Below, in pieces: positions 4,036 to 56,796 of a stretch of DNA of 64,000 nucleotides. Origin of the DNA: a virus; the IMG/VR virus record IMGVR_UViG_3300007512_000011, positions 1 to 64,000 of that record. The stretch is one strand, 5' to 3'. Both the position numbers and the translations under genes were made by a program. Numbering within the stretch: the stretch's first letter is position 1; the number at the start of each line of letters is the position of its first letter. The notes under the pieces are model-generated. The model saw nothing but the letters and a program-made list of their open reading frames with translations, made no database searches and was not told the DNA's origin.

Positions 4036-4485
4036 CTAGTTAGATTTTGCCCATGCCATCGTTACTTTCTGAACTTCGTCGCTGGGAAATTGTCCCCGAT
4101 TTTTGACAACATAGTTAATAAGGTCTGTTTTAGACATATCGCCTGCTGCGATGTGGCCTTTAAGCATCCCCTTGACAGCGGCTGCGAGCTTGGAGCTAAG
4201 AAGATGATCTTCAAATGCTGAATCAGGCGTTACACCTTTCTGCTTAGCTGCATCAAGTACGTGTTTCGGATTGTATGCTTCGGAGTCGGAATCTACTGCT
4301 GCCGCATATTGAGAGTCTGCACCGGCAGGAAATTTCGCTGCCAGACGAACCATCTTTGCTGCAACGTGATCTGGCCCACCTGGAGGATACATCTTTCTGA
4401 TCTCCTCAGCAGATGCCTCAGGTAAAAGGTGCCTCTCTAGCTCCTCTCTGATGATTCTTCGTAGTTGATCTTTGCTAATTTTCAT
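4036..4485 (-). CDS. conserved phage protein with N-terminal IREEL helix
   Basis: The protein of 149 residues starts at ATG 4485; an upstream TTG is less likely. Its first residues, MKISKDQLRRIIREELE, form the amphipathic motif repeated at the N termini of several proteins in this window. The rest is Ala/Lys-rich and probably helical, with no catalytic motif. I suspect a virion-internal or head-associated protein. A late-promoter-like motif stands 24 bases upstream, supporting late expression. Confidence 0.6.
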   Translation of the reverse strand: MKISKDQLRRIIREELERHLLPEASAEEIRKMYPPGGPDHVAAKMVRLAAKFPAGADSQYAAAVDSDSEAYNPKHVLDAAKQKGVTPDSAFEDHLLSSKLAAAVKGMLKGHIAAGDMSKTDLINYVVKNRGQFPSDEVQKVTMAWAKSN

Positions 4486-4508
4486 TGTGGTGTGCCCCTG
4501 CAAAACAT

Positions 4509-6461: not shown

Positions 6462-7232
6462 TTACTTGCCCTCCTTTTGTGATACTAATTTAGCTTCTGA
6501 TCCTGTCAAATTAAAGTCACTGGTATCATTAAAATTCTCTGCGATTCCAAAGCGTAGACGAAGAATTTGCTCCTCCCTGGGACTGAGCCTTTGCAGGCAA
6601 TCACGAACCACGAGCAAGATCTTTTCCTTGTCAATTATTCCGTCTATGTCAATCTGATTAAAGTCAGGAACGACTTCGGAAATAGATCTGTTACCATCCT
6701 TGTTTCCAATTGTTCCATCAATAGAAATCATATTTTGAAACTTAATTGATGCGAGGCTTGCGTTAATCATATTCTCAGATACACCCAAGATATCTGACAG
6801 TTCAGCAATGCTTGGCTTTTGACCCAGATCTTCCTCATATTCCTTCGTAACTGCTTGAATCTTATAAGCCAGTGATGCGGTATGTGCCGGAACCTTAACA
6901 GTATTCCTACTTGTTCCGATATGACGACACACAGACTGTTTAATCCACCAGCTAGCATATGTACTGAACTTGAATCCTCTGCGCCAATCAAACTTTTCTA
7001 CAGCTTTCATTAGGCCGATATTTGACTCTTGAATAAGATCCTCGATATTGCACCCACTTCTATAGTATTTTTTAGCAATACTAATCGCAAGTCGTAGGTT
7101 AGATTCAATCATTATGCTTCTTGCTTCTTGATCTCCCTTTTCAATTCTTTGTGAGAGCATTACTTCCTCCTCACGTGTGAGAAGATTAGTCTTAGAAACA
7201 TCTTTAAAGTATGAATCGAGCGATTGTGACAT
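6462..7232 (-). CDS. RNA polymerase sigma-70 family factor lacking region 4.2
   Basis: This 256-residue protein starts at ATG 7232 after AGGAA. Region 1.2 (residues about 4-34) and a full region 2 are present, with NLRLAISIAKKYYR, the core-binding DLIQESNIGLMKAVEKFDW and the -10 reading FKFSTYASWWIKQS. A region 3 HTH and the region 4.1 helix LSPREEQILRLRFGI follow. The protein then ends in about 25 unrelated polar residues, without the DNA-binding 4.2 helix. It should direct host polymerase to phage promoters. The next gene may supply the missing domain. Upstream lies an AT-rich region with a TATAAAAT box. Confidence 0.93.
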   Translation of the reverse strand: MSQSLDSYFKDVSKTNLLTREEEVMLSQRIEKGDQEARSIMIESNLRLAISIAKKYYRSGCNIEDLIQESNIGLMKAVEKFDWRRGFKFSTYASWWIKQSVCRHIGTSRNTVKVPAHTASLAYKIQAVTKEYEEDLGQKPSIAELSDILGVSENMINASLASIKFQNMISIDGTIGNKDGNRSISEVVPDFNQIDIDGIIDKEKILLVVRDCLQRLSPREEQILRLRFGIAENFNDTSDFNLTGSEAKLVSQKEGK

Positions 7233-8294: not shown

Positions 8295-9914
<1,620 letters not shown>

Positions 9915-11281: not shown

Positions 11282-12052
11282 CTAGAGAGAAAGCTTTTCT
11301 CTAACATTATCGAATAGCTCCAGCAGCTGGGCTTTTTGTTCTGGAAAGTCTTTGCCCAGCTCGTCGGTCAAAGCACTAAATCCCTGTTGCCATTCTCCAA
11401 ACATGCCATCGATCCATTCAGGAATCTCTTGACTTCTCAGCGCATTTTCAAGAGCAGCTAGATCGCCTGTCACCTCTGCACTATGCTTTGCCAAAAAGTC
11501 AGAGATTTTACTTATATCAACATCAACACCGATAAAGCTGCCATACTTGGTGACCATTTCCTGCAAGTCGGAAGACCTTGAAATATCATTCAACTTACTA
11601 GCAACGCGATCGAGGTCACTTGATAGACTTTTCTTTAAGGCAGAAACATCTCCCATACTTAGATTCTCTGCCTCCTTGCCTGCCACTTCTGAAAAATGCT
11701 CAGCTACAGATGGAAAAATCTCTAGAAAACCCTTGGTGCCCTTTTTATTAATATCTGCTAAAATTTTTGAAAAATCAGCCGCGAGATCACCGCTACCAAC
11801 TCCAAGGTATTGAGCTATTTTTCCTGGCTTCACATCAGCCAGGAACATTGCTGTAATCGCTCCTCCGAATGTCGTTAGAGACTTTGGAACTCTGAAAAAG
11901 AGCCACTGTGCAGGCTCTTGCCCGTATAGCTCATAAAATGTCATAAATTGATTTTCCTGGGCTCTCTGGCCTAGCTGGAAACCCACCTTACCTATCTTCT
12001 CGCTAAGAAGGTCTCTCACAATATGTTTTAACTGTTCACGATCAGAGGACAC
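11282..12052 (-). CDS. helical structural or head-internal protein
   Basis: The product of 256 residues most likely starts at GTG 12052, preceded by AGGGAG; an ATG upstream at 12076 overlaps the previous gene further. Its N terminus (REQLKHIVRDLLSEKIG) carries the shared amphipathic motif. The rest is rich in Leu/Ala/Glu and predicted helical. A hydrophobic segment around residues 55-75 may be buried or membrane-interacting. No enzymatic motif is present; an internal head or tail role is plausible. Confidence 0.6.
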   Translation of the reverse strand: MSSDREQLKHIVRDLLSEKIGKVGFQLGQRAQENQFMTFYELYGQEPAQWLFFRVPKSLTTFGGAITAMFLADVKPGKIAQYLGVGSGDLAADFSKILADINKKGTKGFLEIFPSVAEHFSEVAGKEAENLSMGDVSALKKSLSSDLDRVASKLNDISRSSDLQEMVTKYGSFIGVDVDISKISDFLAKHSAEVTGDLAALENALRSQEIPEWIDGMFGEWQQGFSALTDELGKDFPEQKAQLLELFDNVREKLSL

Positions 12053-12323
12053 CAAACATCTCCCTTCTCTCTGCAAGTGTACGAAGCTTTAGGTCAACAC
12101 CTGTCTGCTCCCTATAATAATTAATTAGCTCCTTCTCAAAATCATTCAACCACTGCTCCTTTGTCCTCGAATCACGACGAGAAAATCTTTTACGCAGCGG
12201 TGAGGGTATTCCTCGAAGAATCTCCTTCTTGACAGTCACCCAGTCATCGCAATCTCCAACATAGGATGCAACAAAGCGTAGCTGCTCTAAGATCCTATTC
12301 ATTCCTTGGTCAGATGCTTCCAT
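12042..12323 (-). CDS. small basic hypothetical protein (93 aa)
   Basis: The 93-residue, Arg/Lys-rich helical protein starts at ATG 12323 with AAGG upstream, overlapping the end of the giant gene by 14 bases. Its 3' end overlaps the start of the next gene. It has Trp-containing helices (EQWLNDFEKELINYYREQ) and no known domain. The tight coupling suggests it belongs to the giant-protein operon. Confidence 0.6.
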   Translation of the reverse strand: MEASDQGMNRILEQLRFVASYVGDCDDWVTVKKEILRGIPSPLRKRFSRRDSRTKEQWLNDFEKELINYYREQTGVDLKLRTLAERREMFGVL

Positions 12324-15300
12324 TGTACCTTGAAATTAAGCCCTGTAGTGCCCGAGTCACACTTGCAACCTCATTTGTAGATCCTGGAGAGCTCTCAGCA
12401 GCAATTGATCTTGGGTCTGGAAGATTTAAAGTTGACACAAGCTTAGCAAACTCCTCGCGGTCCCTCTCTGCATCAAGATCAATACCAGACTGTTTTAGTC
12501 TACGTAACGGCGAATTTTTAAGCTGAGATCTGATACCATAGTTTCCACCTCTAAAATTTCTAAAATAAACTGCACCCTGTGCAGGTGAGAAGTCAAAAAA
12601 CTCTGATGATCTGCTGTTACCATTCTCATCTGTTAGTGTGATCTTAAAGTCTGGATGCAGGTGAAACAAGCCTTTTCCCTTCACCTGAACTAGACCTGCC
12701 TTTTTAAGCATGTAATACTTCCGGAGCACATCTGCTGAAACAGTGTAAACAGCAAGCAACGCGCCTGAAATATTCTCTCCCATGCTTCGAAGAGCGGGTA
12801 ATACCACATCCCTATACTCCTCTTTGCTTATCTTAGCGAGGATGCTCTCTATCTCAGGCAGGTCATTCTTAGACCGATAGTCATTTATCACATCCCTTAC
12901 AAGTATCAACCTCCTGTTCACCTCAGCTGCTGTTGGATCCATGTTTATAAGATCTGCAATATCTTGGTTTTGCGGCTTAGGGTTTGAAGCAAAAAACTCA
13001 CCTTTGTCAAAGTCATACTTTAGTGTGGGCTCTCCTGCTTGAGCGTTTGGAAGCTTTACCTCGATGCCGAGCATTCCGCTGGCCATGGGAACATAGACAT
13101 CAGATACAGAGTTATCCTCTCCGCTTTGTACTTGGAGACCAGCTGCCTTGAGATTCTCACCTACATCAATCTCATACACATATCCTGCCTTCCGTTGGCC
13201 TCCGGTGACTCCAGCAATTCCAAAAATCACCATGAGGTCATCGAGATCAGGCATGACATATGCTGGATACTTGCTACTGGGGTTAGGATGCTCATCAGGT
13301 GCAAGCTCAATGATGCCCCTCGTGCGATCAGGTGATAATCTATCGTACATAAGGTTTAATATCTTATTGATATCATGACGATCATCGACACCTGGAGCCA
13401 AGCCAAGCCTAACTAGTTTGTTTGCACCTGACACATTGATTATTTTCTGTATGTCATTTCCGAAAAAATCAGGTGATTTAAGAATGTCAAAGATAACTCT
13501 TGACTTTTCAGTGAAGGATTTCGCGCTCTCATATGTCTCAGAACTCTCGTATAGCAGCTCTCTAACCTTTTGTCTAAAGCGCAGCTCAGCTAATTCACTT
13601 TCTGATGGGGCTTTAGAAATTGTAGCATTGATCACATCGATGGCCTTGCGGGCCTCATCCCTTACCTTCTCCGAGCTGGCATTTAATCTGTGTCCAATAT
13701 ATTCCTCAAATCTTTCTAGAGCTTCTCTAAATTCAGGTGTGTTCGCCATCAGCATATGAGACAAGAGATCCTCAAAGGTTCTGACAGAATTCTTATCCTC
13801 TACCTGCACGCCTAGCTTAGGAAGGTAATCATCAGGATCAGGTATCCTTCCTGATACATCTTCGACACCGTTAACTTTTTCACGTAGTCCGCCTGGAAAA
13901 GCTATTGTGTACTTAATAACCCTGTCTGATGTTGACTCTCTCTCACCTTTTATTTTAGCTAGAAGAGAAAACATTAGCTTATGATATTCACCCTTAACCT
14001 TTCCTTCTCCCCCACCAGAAAGTTCCCAGGATGTATCATCCATGCTAACACTTGGAAACAGGTCAACCTGAAATAATTGACCTGTTTCTGCATCCTTGAC
14101 CATTATGGCGATAAGCTGTCCCACCTTTAACACACGCGGTACACCTTCGACCAATTCATCACTGAGGTATGGCGAACTCAACATCTTTTGGTATAGTGTT
14201 TCCTTATCAGGCTCACTTACAACAAGATCAATATCACCGATCATTTGCTTGTCAGTTGCTGTACTACCCACAGGTAAGAACTTCATGCCTGACGGTTCCA
14301 GTAGATTCTTCTCAAGATCTTGGATTATCCTATCAGCCTGCTGTCTGGATATTCTATCATCTGATGTTGCAACAATCTTATTTCCCTGATCATCCTTCTT
14401 TTTAAAGGCCTTTCCACCCTCGGAGAGAATCTTCATTAAAATCTTATTCACTGTTTCACTTAGATCTTTATCACCTTCTCGGTCTGACATTTTTGCCTTG
14501 CCGTATGAAAAGAATCCACGCAATCTATTAATGGGTGTAAAAAGACCGGTTAACTTATAGGTCTTATTATTGTGTGTAAAGACAATGCCCTCTGTGGCGC
14601 GAGTAAATAAATCTTCATTAGCTTCAAGCCTCGCCAGGGCTACACGAATCCCCTCTAGTGTCTTCTCATCTTCAGATCCCAATCCAAAGTTAAACCCAGA
14701 TTCAAATGCACCCCTAACACCTTTAACAAATCCTAGCAGATCTTCCTGATTACTAGCCTGGAGGGCAAGATCAAGCTTATCAATAATCATAATACCCAGT
14801 CGCTGAATGATATTCTCAAGCGGAACAATTGCTTCTTGAACTACTCTAGTCTTTACTTTGTCGAGCGATCGAAAGCGCTGATAGTCTTCGGGGGATACCA
14901 TCTTCTTAAGTCGTAGTGCAACTTTTCCCTTTCCTGTCATAAATCTGTCAGCGACATCAGGAATCAGATCATCAGGAATAAATTTATATTTCTCACGAAT
15001 AAACTCCTCTAGCCTCGCTTTAACATAATCACCAACTGTATTATTGCCAATTGAAAGCCCAACCTCTCCAACAACTGACTCTAAGTCTTTCTCTAGTTGC
15101 TCAAGTGCACCATCATCCTCTTTAAGACCTTTCATAAGAGAGGCCGTCGGCACCTTGTCCATAGTAAAAGCGTCTGTTGAAGACTCCCGCATCTCTGACA
15201 TGAAGGATGACAGTGCATCCTGGTTAGCAGGCTCTTCTGTCAGAGAAACGGCAAGAACTGTCCTTAGAGAGTCCTCATCATATAAAATTGTATTAGGATT

Positions 15301-16599
15301 CTTTGAAACCATTATCTGTGATACCATCACAACCTCTCCATTTCTAAAGAGTGAATCCTGATATGGTAATGCTACGGGCTCTAGTGCCTCATAGGCAATT
15401 GCAAAACCTTCTGCAATGTTTGATCTATCTCCCGTATATGCAGACATAATCTGATTTAGCGTCATTCCGCCGCCAGCTCCACCTGCTCGAATTAGCTCTA
15501 GCCGTCGATCCTTTGCCCTCTGGCTCTGAAGGTCCATCTTAGTAAAAAATCTTAGCTGTCCATCAACAACTGTGAAAGCTAGAAACTGACCATCCATTTT
15601 TTCCTGAACATTCTCTAGTTTTCCTTCAAGCCCTAGACGGCCAATCTCAATAATATCGCTGAGAGGCATTCCTAGTTCTTCATACAGATTGTATATGTGT
15701 GCTTCCTCACCAGGCTTAGCGGTGTCTTTATCATCTTGCTCTGATAGAATTTTTATAGCAGAAAACTTTGTTGCAGCTCTTTTTATAACAATTTCTGAAA
15801 TGGCTGGCTCATTTATACTGCCCAGAAGAATTTCAATGATCTTGTCCTTTTCATCATTGTTAAGAAAAGGAGGAAGATATCGCTTGGCTTCTTCTGCTGT
15901 CTCTGGAGAAGATGCGAGATCTCTAACTCGAGTACCTCTAACAGACTGCAACTGTGCAATATCCTCGTCAGACAGGTCCTTTCGAGCTTCTCCTTCTAAC
16001 CCAGCATAATATCCCCTTAGTGCATCACGCGCTTCTTCTTCGGCGCGGGCCATTAGGCTATCTAACCTATCTGGATCCAGGTAGTCTTCTGGGCTTTCGG
16101 GAATGGCGCCGCCAAATTGGATCTTTCCCGCTGTCACAAAGTCTTTAAATTTTGGGCTTTTCATGTAAGGCATCATCGAAGATTTATCTCCATAGATAGT
16201 TACCTTTTCATACATGTCGGGATTCTCAACAAACTCCTCAAGATTCTTGAATATCGCTGTTACGGGTGCTCGAACTGCAGCGAGATCTCCCTGTTCATCC
16301 CTGGCCTGACTTTGCACCAGAACTACCTCGACGCCTGGGATTCTATCGAGTGCAGTCTTGTATATTTGAAAGATAGACTCAGCAACTTTCTCGTCATACT
16401 CTCTCTTTGTCTTGCCTATTCTTCTAAACTTCTGTCGAGGTGCCAGCGGCTTACCCCTCTTCCCGTATCTAATGGGCTCCACTTGCTGCATGCCGTAAAA
16501 TAGATACACCTTGTCATTATCGCGTATCGCGTCAGCCAACCTTGCAAAATGTCCAGTTGTGAAGGGCTTGAATCCTCCGCCGTAAAGTCCAAGCTTCAT
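12310..16599 (-). CDS. giant multidomain nucleotidyltransferase/ligase-like protein (1429 aa)
   Basis: The start is ATG 16599 after GAGGAG, with a 4-base ATGA overlap with the phosphoesterase gene. Four domain signatures occur in order. First, an N-terminal HxGH-type nucleotidylyltransferase: GGGFKPFTTGHF near residues 7-18. Second, a covalent nucleotidyltransferase (ligase)-like region: KMDG with Lys334, EGIVF at 670-674 and a motif V-like YKLTG at 681-685; the motif I-IV spacing is unusually long. Third, a Pol-beta-type nucleotidyltransferase: PVGS (Gly778-Ser779), GDID (Asp789, Asp791) and FQVD (Asp846). Fourth, a possible PD-(D/E)XK core: Asp1167 and GIEVK at 1178-1182. I infer a phage nucleic-acid end-processing or ligation machine, perhaps packaged. 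Alternatively, some domains are inactive structural modules. Confidence 0.8.
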   Translation of the reverse strand: MKLGLYGGGFKPFTTGHFARLADAIRDNDKVYLFYGMQQVEPIRYGKRGKPLAPRQKFRRIGKTKREYDEKVAESIFQIYKTALDRIPGVEVVLVQSQARDEQGDLAAVRAPVTAIFKNLEEFVENPDMYEKVTIYGDKSSMMPYMKSPKFKDFVTAGKIQFGGAIPESPEDYLDPDRLDSLMARAEEEARDALRGYYAGLEGEARKDLSDEDIAQLQSVRGTRVRDLASSPETAEEAKRYLPPFLNNDEKDKIIEILLGSINEPAISEIVIKRAATKFSAIKILSEQDDKDTAKPGEEAHIYNLYEELGMPLSDIIEIGRLGLEGKLENVQEKMDGQFLAFTVVDGQLRFFTKMDLQSQRAKDRRLELIRAGGAGGGMTLNQIMSAYTGDRSNIAEGFAIAYEALEPVALPYQDSLFRNGEVVMVSQIMVSKNPNTILYDEDSLRTVLAVSLTEEPANQDALSSFMSEMRESSTDAFTMDKVPTASLMKGLKEDDGALEQLEKDLESVVGEVGLSIGNNTVGDYVKARLEEFIREKYKFIPDDLIPDVADRFMTGKGKVALRLKKMVSPEDYQRFRSLDKVKTRVVQEAIVPLENIIQRLGIMIIDKLDLALQASNQEDLLGFVKGVRGAFESGFNFGLGSEDEKTLEGIRVALARLEANEDLFTRATEGIVFTHNNKTYKLTGLFTPINRLRGFFSYGKAKMSDREGDKDLSETVNKILMKILSEGGKAFKKKDDQGNKIVATSDDRISRQQADRIIQDLEKNLLEPSGMKFLPVGSTATDKQMIGDIDLVVSEPDKETLYQKMLSSPYLSDELVEGVPRVLKVGQLIAIMVKDAETGQLFQVDLFPSVSMDDTSWELSGGGEGKVKGEYHKLMFSLLAKIKGERESTSDRVIKYTIAFPGGLREKVNGVEDVSGRIPDPDDYLPKLGVQVEDKNSVRTFEDLLSHMLMANTPEFREALERFEEYIGHRLNASSEKVRDEARKAIDVINATISKAPSESELAELRFRQKVRELLYESSETYESAKSFTEKSRVIFDILKSPDFFGNDIQKIINVSGANKLVRLGLAPGVDDRHDINKILNLMYDRLSPDRTRGIIELAPDEHPNPSSKYPAYVMPDLDDLMVIFGIAGVTGGQRKAGYVYEIDVGENLKAAGLQVQSGEDNSVSDVYVPMASGMLGIEVKLPNAQAGEPTLKYDFDKGEFFASNPKPQNQDIADLINMDPTAAEVNRRLILVRDVINDYRSKNDLPEIESILAKISKEEYRDVVLPALRSMGENISGALLAVYTVSADVLRKYYMLKKAGLVQVKGKGLFHLHPDFKITLTDENGNSRSSEFFDFSPAQGAVYFRNFRGGNYGIRSQLKNSPLRRLKQSGIDLDAERDREEFAKLVSTLNLPDPRSIAAESSPGSTNEVASVTRALQGLISRYNGSI

Positions 16600-17243
16600 T
16601 CTCTTCTCCTCGGCCAGTGCCCTTGCATCACTCTATATATTTCCTCGACAGCGCCGGGAAAATCTTGCATATTAATTGATAAATGTGCCCGAAGTGTTTC
16701 ACCATCCAGGCGGATATCACACCACTCATTTGACGTTTCACTCTTCTTTGTCGAGACAAGATCACACAGCCTATCAACATGAATTGGCGAGAAGCCCCAG
16801 ATGTCACAGCTAACATTGATCCTCTTTCCCCTAGTCCTGGGTGATATATGAATATGTCCATGAATTAAAAGATCATGATCAGAAAATAGCCTCTCGGGCA
16901 CAGGATGGTGCTGCACTAGTGCTTTTTGTCCATTTGGCAGTGTGTAATTCATCTTTCTATGGCACTCATCAAATCCAACCTCCTTCATCTTCTTGAGACT
17001 CAGATCATGATTTCCCTTTACAAGAACCTTGTAGCCTTTTAGCTGTGACATTATCTCTGGCATTTTTTGCTTACCACACAAAAACATGTCACCCACAACT
17101 ATCACTCTATCATCGTTGCCAACCACACCATTCCAATTGTCAATCAATGCACTATTCATCTCATCAACATTCGAAAATGGTCTATCACAATGCTTGATAA
17201 TATTTCTATGTCCGAAATGTAAGTCTGATGTGAAAAAGTCCAT
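16596..17243 (-). CDS. calcineurin-like metallophosphoesterase
   Basis: The 215-residue protein starts at ATG 17243, overlapping the upstream stop by one base (TAATG). All five metallophosphoesterase motifs are visible: SDLHFGH, GDMF, GNHD, a His in VQHHP, and GHIH. This phage-type family hydrolyses phosphomono- or diesters; some members process cyclic phosphates or ends during nucleic-acid repair. It sits between two nucleotidyltransferase genes with coupled starts, so a substrate made or consumed by those enzymes is likely, though not identified. Confidence 0.9.
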   Translation of the reverse strand: MDFFTSDLHFGHRNIIKHCDRPFSNVDEMNSALIDNWNGVVGNDDRVIVVGDMFLCGKQKMPEIMSQLKGYKVLVKGNHDLSLKKMKEVGFDECHRKMNYTLPNGQKALVQHHPVPERLFSDHDLLIHGHIHISPRTRGKRINVSCDIWGFSPIHVDRLCDLVSTKKSETSNEWCDIRLDGETLRAHLSINMQDFPGAVEEIYRVMQGHWPRRRE

Positions 17244-18502
17244 TAGAGGCCAAACTCCTCCGACATCATTCTAACAGCAGCATCATTCATCTTTAGCAGC
17301 TTCTGGTAGTCTTTCTCATTTAAGCCTCTGGCTTTTTTCTGCTCTACATTTCTTCTAAGATTTTCCTCATAGTGTGCTTTAATGGCATTCATCATATCCA
17401 GCGCGTCATAGTCCCCTCCAGTCTCAAGAGTCAGAGCTAATCCCTTTATTCCCTTCACAAGAGATCTCATGTCTACATTGTCTTTGTCAACACCAGGATT
17501 TCCAACCAAAAGCGGATGAGGATCTAGAGTATCTCCCATAAGGTAGGCAGCAATATCTACCAGAAAATTGCCGATATCTGTACTCACATTTTCAATCTTC
17601 ACATCTTTTTGAAACTTAGCAGGTACTCTCTTTCCCTCCCTAGACTTAATTGCCACCCCCTGGGTACCGACAGACATCACCAGATGGTCACCAAGAGACT
17701 TATATATGTTTCCTATCAGGTATCCCTTGACACCACGCTCTGGTGTATACCTACCCTTCATCCACTCTGCGTATCTCGGATACGTCGTGACTGTGTCTAC
17801 TTGGACTAGCTCTCCACCAGGCAGTGTTACAATGACCATATATGGGCTAGAGCCCGGTTTTAGTGTTAGCTCAATATCAACTTCAGCAGGTCTAGCAGAA
17901 TTTAAAAAATCAACAAACAATTGCTCATATTCTCGCTTGGCTGCATTTTCAGATTGTCGCCTGACTTTCTCATCATCTCCCTCTCGGTGAGTTACGGGAA
18001 GCTCTACCAGATAATCAATATCTCCATATTCTGCACTAGGTCTATCTGCAGCATCCTGTGAATAATAGCTTACAGACCCTACAGGCTTAATTGGCTTCAC
18101 AGGATCATGACCTGTTGACTCAAGATATGAATTCCACTGTCCCAAGAGATTCTCATACACCTTTATTGCCTGGCCCACTAGGGTGGGATTTAACTTTTTA
18201 TCGGAACCGCCGGGAATCTTTAATCCTCCCTCAGCGATCAAGCCGCTTCTAATTCCCAATCTTTTAGCACCATTTCTGAGATATCGAATTGCCTCGATTG
18301 CACTTTGAATTCTGTGTATCTCTTTTCTATTTTGAAGTCTTTTTGGACCACTCCTAAGCGTCCTTTTTAAGTGCTGAAGCTCGTTGATTATTCTATCAAG
18401 GTCTTCGACGTGACTTGTCGAGCCATATTCTGCTTCCGTTCCATCGTAAAGCCTTAGCATAGATTCACGAATAAGCTGTCTTAAAAGCTCTTCTGATCTC
18501 AT
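17243..18502 (-). CDS. Pol-beta-type nucleotidyltransferase with IREE-type N terminus
   Basis: The 419-residue protein starts at ATG 18502. The N terminus (EELLRQLIRESMLRL) has the recurrent amphipathic motif, followed by a Lys/Arg-rich helical region. The catalytic pattern PVGS (Gly142-Ser143), GDID (Asp161, Asp163) and VQVD (Asp236) matches that in the giant protein and the GS/DxD/D signature of Pol-beta-superfamily nucleotidyltransferases. They transfer NMP to nucleic acids, proteins or small molecules. Sequence patterns suggest it and the giant's third domain are related. It leads the coupled three-gene cassette. Confidence 0.8.
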   Translation of the reverse strand: MRSEELLRQLIRESMLRLYDGTEAEYGSTSHVEDLDRIINELQHLKRTLRSGPKRLQNRKEIHRIQSAIEAIRYLRNGAKRLGIRSGLIAEGGLKIPGGSDKKLNPTLVGQAIKVYENLLGQWNSYLESTGHDPVKPIKPVGSVSYYSQDAADRPSAEYGDIDYLVELPVTHREGDDEKVRRQSENAAKREYEQLFVDFLNSARPAEVDIELTLKPGSSPYMVIVTLPGGELVQVDTVTTYPRYAEWMKGRYTPERGVKGYLIGNIYKSLGDHLVMSVGTQGVAIKSREGKRVPAKFQKDVKIENVSTDIGNFLVDIAAYLMGDTLDPHPLLVGNPGVDKDNVDMRSLVKGIKGLALTLETGGDYDALDMMNAIKAHYEENLRRNVEQKKARGLNEKDYQKLLKMNDAAVRMMSEEFGL

Positions 18503-20485: not shown

Positions 20486-22255
20486 TTATTTCCTTAAAAA
20501 CTTTCCAGTTCTTTTGGGTGCAGTCTTCAACGCCTTTTCAAGAATTCCGTAAGCTATATCCTCATCTAAAATGACATCTTGAATCTTGTCAACTAGATCA
20601 TTCATATACTGTTCAAAGTTTTGTGTTGTTAGCACTTCATCTGACACCTGCCGCCTGAAAGCACCATCAGCATTCATCTGTTGCATAAATGCTCTCATTC
20701 CGCCCTCCTTTGCTCCTTTTGTCTTTGCAGGATCAAGAATGGACTTTGCAACGCCCTGAATAAATGCAACAACAGCTTCAAATGAATTTCTAACGTTTAA
20801 ATATTGCTGTGAATTAGGGTCCATGTCTCGAGGAACAACTGCTGTGTTCTGGACTCTTAGGTATCCTTCAATTCCATCTCCTGGAAAAGTTGCACTATCA
20901 CCATCTAGCAGTGCATCTAAAACACTGGCTTCATCATCCTCATCGTAGCCTATACTCTCAACATAGTCTCGCATTGTTGATCTGAATAGATCATATGTTA
21001 CACCTGTTATCTGCTTTTGTGCGTTTAGCTTCATTGGATCATATGTGCTTGGAATTTTTTTCTCGCTTGGAAATCCTAGCATTGTAGCATCTTCTGGGTT
21101 GAACCCGAATACCTTAAGATCATCATAAAGAATATTTTGAATATTATTGACCTTTAAGCCTGTCTCATCTGCAATTTTTTCTTTAAGTGCTTGCAGGGCT
21201 TTTTGTGACATCTTGAGATCAACTCCTTCCTGCTCTAGAACTTCATCACGTAGTTGCTTGCGAATCTTTGCTGCCTCATGCGGATTGATTGTCTCTATTG
21301 CTGCAACTGGATCAACAGATTCCTCAGGCTCAGAGACTTCTTGCTCAGTTTCATCAGCAAGCTTTCTAAGCCCTTTTGCATTGTCCTCCATTCCCATTGC
21401 CTCTAGTTCGTCGGCGCGATCTCTAAGGGCAGCAACAAGCTCAAGACCCTCAAATCCAGTCTCCTTTCTAACTTTAGCCATCTCCTTGGCTGGTACACGT
21501 GCTGCTGCTTCTGCTTTTCCCGCAGCAATGTATCCAGAGACTTCTTCTGGTGTCACCTCTCGTTTTGCAAATCTAAGCATCTCATTTGCAACAGCAACCC
21601 TAACGTCCTTTATCTCATCTTCTGAGAGCTTGCTTTTTCGTAGAATGTTCTGAATAACTGAGTTTTTTTGCAGCTGGCTCAAAACTCGAAGCTGTACAAG
21701 TCTGGGTTCTGCAGCTCTTGTCATCGGTTTCCCACTTTCAGGATCAACACCGACAATGTCTTGAAAAAATGCAGGATTCGCAACAATGTAGTCAACTATC
21801 TTATCTGCTGCTTCAGAAACGGGATCTTCTATGGATAGCTTTATATCATCAAGAGATTCATCATCATTATCTTCTAAGAGCAGCCGAACTTTTTCTCGAA
21901 ACAATGTCTCGTCAAGAGTCTCCTCATAAGTCTTAGCATCATGCCTATCTAATGCATTGTCTAAAAGCCTGTGAAGCTTTCTATAGAAAAATTCAATCTG
22001 ATCTGCAGGCACCTCAGCAGATATAACAGAAGCTGCACGACCCAGTTCTTCAACATTTGACGGTATGTATACAGGATCGTCTACAGGGGGCATATCCACT
22101 GATAGCTGCACAGCCATTTGTGGTGTTGGCTCAATAGGCTCATCATCATCTGCACCTGGAATCATATCAATTCTCTCTGATCGATAACTTCGATCCTCAT
22201 TTAAGATCCTTAGAAGTGCTTCTTCCAGGGCACCTTTCTTTACTATGACGCGCAT
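20486..22255 (-). CDS. large acidic structural or scaffold-like protein (589 aa)
   Basis: I choose ATG 22255, because GAGGAG lies eight bases upstream and a late-promoter-like motif a little further. A reading from 22321 would run through both. The N terminus (ALEEALLRILNEDRSYR) resembles the shared amphipathic helix. The 589-residue protein is helical and rich in Asp/Glu/Ala, with several long amphipathic helices and no catalytic motif. Probably it is a head core, scaffold or other virion assembly protein; a nucleic-acid-binding role is possible but unseen. Confidence 0.65.
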   Translation of the reverse strand: MRVIVKKGALEEALLRILNEDRSYRSERIDMIPGADDDEPIEPTPQMAVQLSVDMPPVDDPVYIPSNVEELGRAASVISAEVPADQIEFFYRKLHRLLDNALDRHDAKTYEETLDETLFREKVRLLLEDNDDESLDDIKLSIEDPVSEAADKIVDYIVANPAFFQDIVGVDPESGKPMTRAAEPRLVQLRVLSQLQKNSVIQNILRKSKLSEDEIKDVRVAVANEMLRFAKREVTPEEVSGYIAAGKAEAAARVPAKEMAKVRKETGFEGLELVAALRDRADELEAMGMEDNAKGLRKLADETEQEVSEPEESVDPVAAIETINPHEAAKIRKQLRDEVLEQEGVDLKMSQKALQALKEKIADETGLKVNNIQNILYDDLKVFGFNPEDATMLGFPSEKKIPSTYDPMKLNAQKQITGVTYDLFRSTMRDYVESIGYDEDDEASVLDALLDGDSATFPGDGIEGYLRVQNTAVVPRDMDPNSQQYLNVRNSFEAVVAFIQGVAKSILDPAKTKGAKEGGMRAFMQQMNADGAFRRQVSDEVLTTQNFEQYMNDLVDKIQDVILDEDIAYGILEKALKTAPKRTGKFLRK

Positions 22256-22271
22256 ACGAGACTCCTCACAG

Positions 22272-22278
22272 ATAAATA
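22272..22278 (-). promoter_or_regulatory. putative late promoter (TATTTAT)
   Basis: Minus-strand AGATATTTATCTG, itself palindromic, lies 17 bases before the chosen start of the large structural protein and matches the recurrent motif. Confidence 0.4.
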
Positions 22279-22290
22279 TCTGCGGTAGTT

Positions 22291-22734
22291 TTAATTTGCT
22301 GAGGCTTGTGAAACTGCCCAAACACCAAAAGACGTCGCCAGAATACCTGTTACAATCCCACCTACATACCAGGCTGATGCTGACGGGCTTCCTCTCCTTT
22401 TAATTTGTGTATTAAGAAGATCAATATGATCATTCTTTACAATTAAAATTTCTTCGCTGCGCTTCTCACAAAAGTCCAATCTGATCTTCTCAACATCAAC
22501 CAGATATTGCATTTCAGCCTCTTTTATGGCTGTTGCCTGCTCTATTTTTATCTGGCATGCTTGCTGTGCGTTCTCAAGATCTATGGCTATCTTGGCTGCA
22601 GCAGCTGTGCTAAATAGTGTTCCAGAAAAAGGAGCTGTATCTCCTACTTGCAAAGTTACTATTTTTTCCTCTTGAGGCTCATCTGCAAATACAACTCCCA
22701 TTGTAGCAATCATTAAAGCTCCAAACAGCATCAT
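22291..22734 (-). CDS. exported membrane-anchored protein, lysis-locus type
   Basis: The 147-residue protein starts at ATG 22734 (GAGGTAGA). A signal peptide (FGALMIATMGVVFADE) is followed by VGDTAPFSGTLFSTAAAAKI, a motif known from phage lysis and envelope loci. Then come a helical, coiled-coil-like middle and a C-terminal membrane span (about residues 124-143). The order signal, periplasmic coil, TM suggests a protein bridging the envelope. It overlaps the upstream i-spanin-like gene by four bases. Confidence 0.65.
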   Translation of the reverse strand: MMLFGALMIATMGVVFADEPQEEKIVTLQVGDTAPFSGTLFSTAAAAKIAIDLENAQQACQIKIEQATAIKEAEMQYLVDVEKIRLDFCEKRSEEILIVKNDHIDLLNTQIKRRGSPSASAWYVGGIVTGILATSFGVWAVSQASAN

Positions 22735-24849: not shown

Positions 24850-25545
24850 TCAAGCCCTCAACGCCTTTTGAATCTTATCAGCCTTACGAATTCTCTCTTC
24901 GATGACATTCCAATTAAGTTGCTTCATCATTGCATGCACATATGTTCTTGCATCTCTCAAATAATCTCGATAATAAGCATGTTGCCACACATCCATAACA
25001 ATGACTGGGTAAGAGCCAATTGGAATCTGCAGGCTGTGTAGGTCAACAACACAATTTACATACCTCTGGAGATATGTGCTATAAATGGTCACAGCCCATC
25101 CACATCTAGATGCCATGCAACATGCGATAAAATCCTCCTGCCACTTGTCAAAACCCCCAAAGTCACGAGAAAGTCGCATATAAGAAAGTGAATCCATTGA
25201 TATCTGGCTATGAAGATCACTTATGTTTGAAAAATAAAGCTCATGAAGGTATGCTCCATTCATGTTGTATGCTTCGTCAATCTTCAAGGACCTATACTCT
25301 GAATGATTAGAATTTGCTGCAGACCTATCTGCTGTATCTAGCTCAGCACTCACACGATTGAAATTTTCAACATACCCTTCATACAGCTCAATGTGGTTCC
25401 TCTTATTAGCCACACTTAACAGCTCCGTCGGTAAATTATATTGCTTCAGCTGTGCAACATACGCTTCATTCAGCTCTTCATTTTCATTGAGCCCTAACGA
25501 TTCACGTATGTTATCTCTCAGATTCTTATTAGTAAAGTCTGACAT
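24850..25545 (-). CDS. Fe/Mn superoxide dismutase-family protein
   Basis: The 231-residue protein has an N-terminal region unlike SOD. Then follow SOD-like segments: NHIELYEGYVENFN, AYLHELYFSN, and the strongly conserved metal-ligand motif DVWQHAYYRDY (Asp and His ligands) near the end. The first two His ligands appear at roughly the expected places, one offset by a residue. SODs disproportionate superoxide. The position among structural and lysis genes, coupled by TAATG to its neighbour, suggests a virion or infection role rather than housekeeping; catalysis is untested. Confidence 0.8.
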   Translation of the reverse strand: MSDFTNKNLRDNIRESLGLNENEELNEAYVAQLKQYNLPTELLSVANKRNHIELYEGYVENFNRVSAELDTADRSAANSNHSEYRSLKIDEAYNMNGAYLHELYFSNISDLHSQISMDSLSYMRLSRDFGGFDKWQEDFIACCMASRCGWAVTIYSTYLQRYVNCVVDLHSLQIPIGSYPVIVMDVWQHAYYRDYLRDARTYVHAMMKQLNWNVIEERIRKADKIQKALRA

Positions 25546-35080: not shown

Positions 35081-36949
<1,869 letters not shown>

Positions 36950-39509: not shown

Positions 39510-40451
39510 TTAGAGAGAATGTTTATTTAAAAAGAGTCGTAAAAAATCTTTTGAGTCATCATACATTGATATGTTTTCGCGACCCTCTAGTTCAGTGTTA
39601 TATGATGTTCTTGGAGAATAGACATGAATACCGTGCTTTGCATACTCAGCTGCATGCTTTGCTGAATCATCGATTGCACAGACGACTTTTCCAGAATCAA
39701 AATAATCTGACTGTGTGAGCCATCTATACTTTTCAGAGCTAAAGCTAATTCTATCATACTGCAAGCCCGACTCATTTATCCAGTGAAAAGTATCATAACA
39801 ACAAAGCAAATTTTCATTAGGACGGGCAGTCAGTATATGTACCCAATATCCTGCATCTTTAATCTGATTTATAGCAGAGATCATCTTCTTGTTTGGTGCC
39901 AGATTGCGTAATTCTCTTTCTCTGATGAAGTCAAAAAAGACCTTTTCCGGATTTAACCCAGCTGCTTTTACCTCTGATGTTGTATAGTATTCAGAAGAAT
40001 TTCTATCGATCTTAAGATTATGATTTTTCTCCAACCACTCTATAAATCCCGATCTGAATTCTATTATGACATCGTCCAAGTCAAGAATTATTACCTCTTG
40101 GCCCTCCCATTGGCTCTTAGATGATTGATAACGGGTGTGCAAAAAGAGGTCTTTGTCATGAAACGCAGAGACAAACTGATCACTCGAAATGTCCCACAGA
40201 TTCAAGATAGCCAAAATATATCGAAATACATCAACAGACTCATACAGAATTTTCGTTTTATTGACAGGTACGATTTCACTAGTGTGATCTTTATAGTTTA
40301 GCCCAGACACTAGAGAAGAGACCTCTGCGTGCAATGCTAGAGAAAAAGACTTTGTAGTCTCTTCTTTCTGCTTCTCTGAAAGCTTGTCAGAGCTGTAGAA
40401 CAGATCATTAAAAACTCTCTGTCTACTAAAAAGGTCGTCGATGGTTGACAA
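39510..40451 (-). CDS. fusion: all-alpha NTP-pyrophosphatase (dUTPase-like) + HAD phosphatase
   Basis: The 313-residue protein starts at TTG 40451. Residues 1-115 resemble a dimeric dUTPase/MazG-type all-alpha pyrophosphatase (HAEVSS and ESVDVFRY). Residues 118-313 form a HAD hydrolase, with the nucleophile motif ILDLDDVII, HILTARP and CAIDDSAKHA, similar to 5'(3')-deoxyribonucleotidases. I infer sequential hydrolysis of a nucleotide such as dUTP to dUMP and on to deoxynucleoside, or specific removal of an unwanted or modified nucleotide. The fusion is not one I recognise. Confidence 0.75.
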   Translation of the reverse strand: MSTIDDLFSRQRVFNDLFYSSDKLSEKQKEETTKSFSLALHAEVSSLVSGLNYKDHTSEIVPVNKTKILYESVDVFRYILAILNLWDISSDQFVSAFHDKDLFLHTRYQSSKSQWEGQEVIILDLDDVIIEFRSGFIEWLEKNHNLKIDRNSSEYYTTSEVKAAGLNPEKVFFDFIRERELRNLAPNKKMISAINQIKDAGYWVHILTARPNENLLCCYDTFHWINESGLQYDRISFSSEKYRWLTQSDYFDSGKVVCAIDDSAKHAAEYAKHGIHVYSPRTSYNTELEGRENISMYDDSKDFLRLFLNKHSL

Positions 40452-56193: not shown

Positions 56194-56796
56194 TTATTCA
56201 AAGTCTATATCAACAGAAATCTTAATATTGAACTTTGGTACTCTCAGCTGATTTGCAAGACCGTGCTTTTTAGTCTCGTCGGGATCTAAAAACCAGTCAG
56301 CATGTCCTTTTTTATGCACGATTTTCAGAAAATAATCATCTCTCTTGCCACAGTTTCTTGCCATCATTGTGTAAACAATGTTGTTTAATCTCTCTGTTTC
56401 CTCAGCAGATGCCTTGAGCTCTTCGACCTTTCCCCTTTCCATTGATGATACGTCATGTATCATCACAGTGGCATTCGGATCCATAAATCTCATTCCATCT
56501 GTACCGAAGGAAAACAAGATAGCACCACAAGACATCGCCTTGCCCTCTACAATAGTTGCTATTGGTAATTCTGAATGCTTTACTGCGCTAATCATTGACA
56601 TCAAGCTATAGACTTGACCGCCGTATGAATCAATTACGACTGGAATGACTTTTTGACCAGTGTTGTGAGCCTGTGCAATCTCCTGGCTAAATGTCTTTGC
56701 AGCATCTTCATCGAACTTATTGACTCGAATTATAACAGGATTTTTTCTTAGCTCAACTTCTTTTATTTCTGGTGATATTTCTGTTGTCCACTTCAC
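56194..56796 (-). CDS. ClpP-like serine protease
   Basis: The 200-residue protein starts at GTG 56796. The ClpP/SppA fold motifs are visible: VIDSYGGQVYSL (oxyanion region), KAMSCGAIL with the nucleophilic Ser, MIHDVSS with the catalytic His, and ADWFLDPDETKKHG providing the Asp. A phage ClpP could process phage head proteins or alter host proteolysis. It is located between the thioesterase and the reductase genes. The ATPase partner is not encoded here. Confidence 0.85.
   Translation of the reverse strand: MKWTTEISPEIKEVELRKNPVIIRVNKFDEDAAKTFSQEIAQAHNTGQKVIPVVIDSYGGQVYSLMSMISAVKHSELPIATIVEGKAMSCGAILFSFGTDGMRFMDPNATVMIHDVSSMERGKVEELKASAEETERLNNIVYTMMARNCGKRDDYFLKIVHKKGHADWFLDPDETKKHGLANQLRVPKFNIKISVDIDFE

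Follow-up and report, generated by a model that had tools for sequence, protein, structure and literature searches.

The window analysed here is a stretch of 64,000 nucleotides from a 114,967-base IMG/VR virus contig. Its minus strand encodes a protein of 1429 residues that is the subject of this work. The source phage is marine and T4-like: the other part of the record encodes a gp21-family protease, a major head protein and a portal (phrog_138, phrog_213 for the last two). The features of the gene and of the two genes next to it are as follows (^ marks a predicted cut).

12310..16599, minus strand: whole gene, 1429 aa (ORF call)
15820..16599, minus strand: domain 1, residues 1-260, HIGH-superfamily (NMN adenylyltransferase-like) nucleotidylyltransferase, NTase below (AF2 model, PDB folds, conservation)
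15736..15819, minus strand: linker 1, residues 261-288, LSE^Q (285-288), predicted cut after E287
14500..15735, minus strand: domain 2, residues 289-700, RNA_ligase-like nucleotidyltransferase ligase (Pfam in relatives, BFVD, motifs)
14419..14499, minus strand: linker 2, residues 701-727, helix and ILSE^GGKAF, predicted cut after E727
13675..14418, minus strand: domain 3, residues 728-975, Pol-X/Pol-beta nucleotidyltransferase (PDB fold match, invariant aspartates)
13540..13674, minus strand: linker 3, residues 976-1020, helix LRFRQKVRELLYE^SS, predicted cut after E1018
12313..13539, minus strand: C-terminal part, residues 1021-1429, PD-(D/E)XK-like core (core invariant in the close clade)
16596..17243, minus strand: metallophosphoesterase, 215 aa, overlapping the start of the main gene (phrog_547, E 1.8e-48)
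17243..18502, minus strand: second Pol-beta paralogue, 419 aa, with an N-terminal LRxxIR tag (Pol profile, E 1.7e-4)

A first-pass annotation had described four nucleotide-handling signatures in this order in a single chain, and all of the motifs are found at the expected positions. These are FTTGH (13-17), RGTRVRD (221-227), EKMDGQ with Lys334, NGEVV (420-424) and NPNTILYD (434-441) in the N-terminal half, followed by EGIVF (670-674), YKLTG (681-685), PVGST (776-780), GDIDL (788-792) and FQVDL (843-847), and then by SDVYV (1166-1170) and GIEVK (1178-1182) in the C-terminal part. The first of them is indeed a nucleotidylyltransferase motif of the (H/T)xGH form, but it reads TTGH here and not HxGH as had been claimed. 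The distance from Lys334 to EGIVF, i.e., from ligase motif I to motif IV, is 336 residues, just as reported, and the insertion suggested on this ground is real: it lies between motifs III and IV, where the AF2 model has a helical block at about 493-660.

The whole 1429-residue protein has no match above the cut-off in Pfam, PHROG or NCBIfam. Because direct library scans gave nothing, we drew the domain identities from relatives, and the profile check proposed earlier succeeded in that indirect form only, with CTP_transf_like and RNA_ligase matches. Structure prediction by segment agreed with the annotation for the NTase and Pol domains. AF2 was run on residues 1-720 with a 22-row alignment (pLDDT 80.5) and on residues 705-1429 (pLDDT 69.5).

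Domain 1 contains (T/H)xGH at 14-17 and RGTxVR at 221-226. These correspond to the hallmarks of the HIGH superfamily, (H/T)xGH and a distal (S/T)xxR, which are kept in relatives as FTTGH or FHTGH and RGTxVR. The window clade carries TTGH, three other relatives (L024-L026) HTGH, and one (L028) HAGH. The model has a Rossmann-like fold, and a Foldseek search of the PDB matched it to NadM, NadR and NadD with a probability of 1.00 (E 2.4e-4 for NadM). Pfam CTP_transf_like was above the cut-off in relatives L008 and L009. Identification of domain 1 as an NMNAT-like NTase is thus supported, and NMN may be its substrate.

The key residues of domain 2 are Lys334, NGE at 420, EG at 670 and K682. Pfam RNA_ligase (PF09414, an Rnl2-like family) is matched by 6 of 15 relatives with a best E of 1.4e-6; the window sequence itself is unmatched. 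Seven residues, K45, D47, G48, G132, E381, G382 and K393 in segment numbering, are invariant in the 15 ligase sequences and represent motifs I (KxDG), III, IV (EG) and V (Lys). Motif I reads KxDGQN in most relatives and KMDGQF in the window clade. In BFVD, domain 2 has as neighbours RNA ligases as well as cytidyltransferase-like proteins of phages (best E 1.8e-22). Against the PDB, the ligase profile gave one motif-level match only, to a DNA ligase (E 0.3), and the NTase-ligase model had weak matches to archaeal DNA ligases and NHEJ ligase complexes. The Pfam matches of relatives, the motifs and the BFVD neighbours support domain 2 as an RNA_ligase-like ligase.

Domain 3 has the catalytic residues GS at 778-779, D789, D791 and D846. 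Every one of the 17 relatives has the three aspartates and the Gly of GS. The best PDB match of the model is DNA polymerase lambda (E 1e-6, probability 1.00) among 198 matches at E<=1e-3. Fold and conserved residues support the identification of domain 3 as a Pol-X (DNA polymerase lambda-like) nucleotidyltransferase, and viral repair Pol X proteins are matched weakly by sequence. Catalytic residues of all three of these domains are kept in divergent relatives. The NTase, the ligase and the Pol domain are supported both by fold and by conservation.

The C-terminal part is possibly a nuclease, judging from its motifs. The EVK core announced by the first-pass annotation holds up at the level of residues, as E1143, D1167 and E1180-V-K1182 are invariant in the close clade. 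It did not receive further backing from profiles or folds: nothing was above the Pfam cut-off for this part, the AF2 pLDDT falls below 50 around the core (residues about 1129-1190), and homology among the nuclease-like C-termini of relatives was not significant in hhalign comparisons. By eye, comparable D...(E/S)xK stretches are recognizable in the C-termini of other relatives.

All four parts of the protein are under purifying selection, contrary to the suggestion that some domains may be degenerate. Compared with the relative L002, which is 88% identical to the window protein, dN/dS is 0.145 for the NTase, 0.071 for the ligase, 0.112 for the Pol domain and 0.080 for the C-terminal part. The corresponding values are 0.60 for linker 1, 0.65 for linker 3 and 0.24 for the ligase-Pol linker 2. 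With catalytic conservation in relatives, low dN/dS and fold and Pfam matches, the four-signature protein is not a product of chance.

Full-length relatives are encoded in six IMG/VR contigs, and at least 496 relatives of the ligase domain were confirmed in IMG/VR. The NTase-ligase-Pol order recurs in divergent phage contigs; according to a profile search, it occurs as a fusion in L022, L024-L026 and L089. The same order is spread over two genes in L004-L007, L020, L021, L028 and L086 and over three genes in L027, L087 and L092-L094. In L004-L007 the NTase is a gene of its own, directly followed by a gene for the ligase, the Pol domain and the C-terminus. A wider scan found an NTase motif in the same ORF as the ligase in 60 of 79 ligase ORFs, before the ligase in 41 and after it in 19. 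Since the NTase-ligase fusion is repeated and occurs in both orders, we argue for a joint function of these two domains.

Several relatives have additional parts. L009 begins with a ParB domain matching polyvalent virion proteins. L006 (10171-10935) has an insert of about 190 residues between the ligase and Pol domains; a reading of this insert as a lysozyme was dropped, there being no Pfam or PHROG match. By eye, other large phage proteins (L063-L067, L078 5911-8634, L029-L062) appear to fuse an NTase of the same kind to Pol-beta, HExxH peptidase-like and HAD-like domains.

The joins between the domains follow a pattern of their own. In T4, the prohead protease gp21 recognizes L/I-X-E and cuts after E (PMC9026906). 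The three joins of the window protein carry LSE, LSE and LYE at the predicted cut sites. L/I-x-E is a weak motif that is frequent by chance in a long protein, and what carries information is its location at the joins alone. All 13 fused proteins have [ILVMF]xE immediately before the internal Pol domain (the background is 2.4% per position), which mostly starts with GG[NK]AF. Internal ligases show [ILVM]xE^GGxxGH in 23 of 26 non-redundant cases, with a background of 1.8% per position; the nominal binomial probability for these joins is too small, as the ligase ORFs are homologous and independence is overstated. LxE is present near the NTase-ligase join in 12 of 13 proteins, [ILVMF]xE within 16 of 17 NTase leaders of at least 14 residues, and a helix with [IL]xE at joins of the fused proteins. 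In the window protein, pLDDT is below 50 at residues 263-300, in the region of linker 1.

The alternation between a start codon and L/I-x-E is a stronger argument than the binomial one. Eleven ORFs that open with the ligase domain begin with M^GGxxGH. Likewise, the stand-alone Pol genes of L027, Pseudomonas phage PA5oct, Atu_ph07 and Flavobacterium phage immuto have their start codon at the same point, as M^GG or M^SG.

A second element of the linkers is a helix of the LRxxIRxxL type. We counted it with a simple pattern and shuffles, replacing a position-weight scan that was biased by closely related C-terminal tags. In six proteins of the record the pattern lies among the 30 N-terminal residues, whereas 200 shuffles gave 0.72 such cases on average and 4 at most; this excess is modest. 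In relatives it was observed 13 times at the N-terminus (1.8 in shuffles) and 13 times at the C-terminus (1.4 in shuffles). The window protein (P0001) has no N-terminal tag.

The six tagged reading frames are 4036-4503, 11282-12076, 17243-18502, 20486-22321 and 24850-25545 of the window and 13931-14416 of L081, and the region from about 4 to 26 kb of the window may be a block of cargo genes. The product of the gene at 24850-25545 (minus strand) matches iron/manganese superoxide dismutase (PF02777, E 2.7e-18); as its N-terminus carries an LRxxIRxxL tag, it is possibly another packaged enzyme. A superoxide dismutase-like stretch, MDVWEHAYY, is also readable inside the multidomain protein of L050. 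Elsewhere in the window there are a GreA/GreB factor (1699-2178), a small CTP_transf_like NTase (2141-2614), a sigma-70 factor (6462-7232), and an NT5C-type phosphatase domain with a MazG/dUTPase-like N-terminus (39510-40451). The same phage genome encodes a GroEL-like protein recognized by eye (8295-9908) and an Hsp70 (35081-36946; PF00012, E 4.2e-248). A head-maturation/ClpP-like protease is found at 56194-56796 in addition to the gp21-type protease.

The gp21-family prohead protease of this phage is encoded at L081:14404-15018 (PF03420, E 2.1e-25). The presumed pro-region of the major capsid protein ends with LLRE in the source phage and in two homologues, and with ILTE in cyanophage S-SM1. 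The N-terminus of L079 is MKFLKSYEEFLNENLILE^GGSYGH and that of SSM1_190 of S-SM1 is MKKFSAFLNEAE; we take both to be reminiscent of the T4 targeting peptide. In T4, the N-terminal 10 residues of IPIII, a capsid targeting sequence (CTS), are enough for the entry of proteins into the head and their subsequent delivery into the host cell (PMC9026906).

Virion mass spectrometry has been published for distant relatives. The product of a cyanophage core gene, the cytidylyltransferase T4-GC190, was detected in purified S-SM1 virions (PMC3037559). Its neighbours in S-SM1 are a nuclease-like protein and a DUF6267 (PF19782) protein, SSM1_189 (L172 19296-20270). The latter has ligase-like motifs VKWDGAPA, PNTLEYR and HEGFV, on which its reading as a ligase rests, as the match to the ligase profile was not significant. 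It is possible that DUF6267 represents a divergent family of cyanophage ligases. For the Pol relative of PA5oct, EST35_0231, the annotation is that of a structural protein identified by ESI-MS/MS, one of a run of such proteins. Near it are a nuclease-like protein, EST35_0229, and a ligase-like protein, EST35_0228, which has 446 residues, the length of the BFVD match A0A4Y5JUK8, and aligns with the ligase family in pairwise hhalign with an E of 2.5e-5. In Agrobacterium phage Atu_ph07 (L077 7597-12529), a tandem array of paralogous genes comes after the ligase-like and Pol genes; its members begin with MRWHQLIE or MKWHQLTEA, like T4 targeting peptides. Their products look ADP-ribosyltransferase-like by eye, and Pfam gave no support for this.

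We propose, with about even confidence for and against, that the protein is a kit for repairing nucleic-acid ends, synthesized as one chain, packaged in the head, matured by a protease and injected. The LRxxIRxxL-type linker helices would carry the chain into the prohead core. There the phage's own gp21-like prohead protease would cut after L/I-x-E at the three joins, at about E287, E727 and E1018. Four products would result: the NMNAT-like NTase, the RNA_ligase-type ligase, the Pol-X-type nucleotidyltransferase and the C-terminal domain, which is possibly a nuclease. Once freed, the enzymes would enter the host together with the genome and would immediately deal with broken nucleic acid. The most likely role we infer is an early repair of its ends upon injection, and the likeliest target would be tRNA, or another RNA, that host defence has cleaved. 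Lost nucleotides would be replaced by the Pol domain, and the ligase would then seal the ends. The NTase might supply or recycle an adenylylated cofactor (NAD+), feed the ligation chemistry or prepare an end. Points against packaging are the lack of an N-terminal tag in the window protein, the weakness of the L/I-x-E motif, the modest tag excess in the record, and that the virion relatives in S-SM1 and PA5oct are distant and encoded as separate genes.

The NTase domain taken alone allows a narrower reading, which is compatible with the other explanations. It could be an NMN adenylyltransferase that restores NAD+ against NAD-depleting defence, in which case its fusion with repair enzymes would reflect joint delivery only. 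NadM, NadR and NadD are its best folds, and phage NAD salvage and head-packaged NAD/ADPr enzymes have been described (PMC9503650). However, many phages link the NTase to the ligase, in one order or the other, which is beyond the expectation for joint delivery, and we hold this reading to be possible but rather unlikely.

The same packaged and cut polyprotein could also serve DNA, with Pol X filling gaps and the ligase sealing nicks or ends of the incoming genome, on the model of the Pol X and ligase repair of large DNA viruses or of bacterial NHEJ. A DNA substrate is favoured by the best fold match of the Pol domain, DNA polymerase lambda; the weak similarities to viral repair Pol X, archaeal DNA ligases and NHEJ ligase complexes point in the same direction, and end trimming would suit a nuclease-like C-terminus. 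On the other hand, ligase relatives match the Pfam family RNA_ligase and not a DNA ligase family, their motif I is KxDGQN or KMDGQF as against the KxDGxR usual in DNA ligases, their BFVD neighbours are mainly RNA ligases, and the presence of an NMNAT would be left unexplained. We consider the DNA version unlikely. An RNA substrate is favoured because of the ligase family and the known pairing of RNA ligases with Pol-beta nucleotidyltransferases (PMC7824862).

The weakest alternative is a multi-enzyme RNA-repair protein that stays in the cytoplasm and is never packaged, L/I-x-E^GG being a structural start of two folds after a helix; fusions as such do not require cleavage, and the partnership of RNA ligase and Pol-beta is known from cytoplasmic phage RNA repair with RlaP (PMC7824862), but this reading is improbable in our opinion, as it accounts neither for E at -1 and a hydrophobic residue at -3, kept while the rest of the linker varies, nor for the start codon in place of L/I-x-E in stand-alone genes, and relatives are virion proteins.

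The packaged and cleaved chain that we favour resembles several known systems. Phage polyvalent proteins (PMC5512222) are also large and multidomain, combine disparate enzymes and are predicted to be packaged and injected; the window protein likewise holds several disparate enzyme domains in one phage protein. Their release is ascribed to built-in peptidase domains, whereas the joins described here fit the phage's own prohead protease, and in the parts of that work consulted neither an RNA ligase nor a HIGH NTase is reported among the domains. The internal head proteins of T4 and Alt with their CTS (PMC9026906) share a targeting peptide, gp21 cutting at L/I-X-E and injection with DNA, all of which are predicted in our case; in T4 terminal propeptides are lost, whereas here the cuts would part several enzymes of one chain. 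Phage RNA repair by Rnl1/Rnl2 and RlaP (PMC7824862) also combines an RNA ligase-type ligase with a Pol-beta nucleotidyltransferase, but as separate enzymes without a HIGH NTase; here there is one chain, and its Pol fold is nearest to polymerase lambda.

Among the virion relatives, SSM1_188-190 of S-SM1 (T4-GC190) are adjoining genes for nuclease-like, ligase-like DUF6267 and NTase proteins (CTP_transf_like, E 5e-7), and the NTase protein, found in the virion, begins with MKKFSAFLNEA, like the T4 CTS. The differences are that the genes are separate, that no Pol domain was seen, and that the ligase reading of DUF6267 is made by eye. EST35_0228 to 0231 of PA5oct place ligase-like (0228), nuclease-like (0229) and Pol (0231) proteins side by side among virion proteins detected by mass spectrometry, but they too are separate genes, and no NTase was seen in the cluster. 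The first-pass annotation knew of no characterised protein with the same combination of domains. Neither this combination nor the processing of one chain into several enzymes by a prohead protease was found in the literature searched, which included few subscription papers, and novelty is unproven.

With these results, a large and so far unassigned family of proteins from aquatic phages, counting at least 496 ligase-domain relatives in IMG/VR, receives a function that can be tested. They offer a possible reason for the NTase being a virion protein in marine cyanophages. They also suggest that the prohead protease both matures the head and frees enzymes from polyproteins inside the head. Exact N-termini of the fragments can be predicted from the joins. 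There is, in our estimate, an even chance that this is a true polyprotein strategy in tailed phages, with one chain, shared linker tags, cutting by the prohead protease and an injected multi-enzyme first-aid kit. If so, the strategy would be widespread in aquatic phages and would take in core genes of cyanophages.
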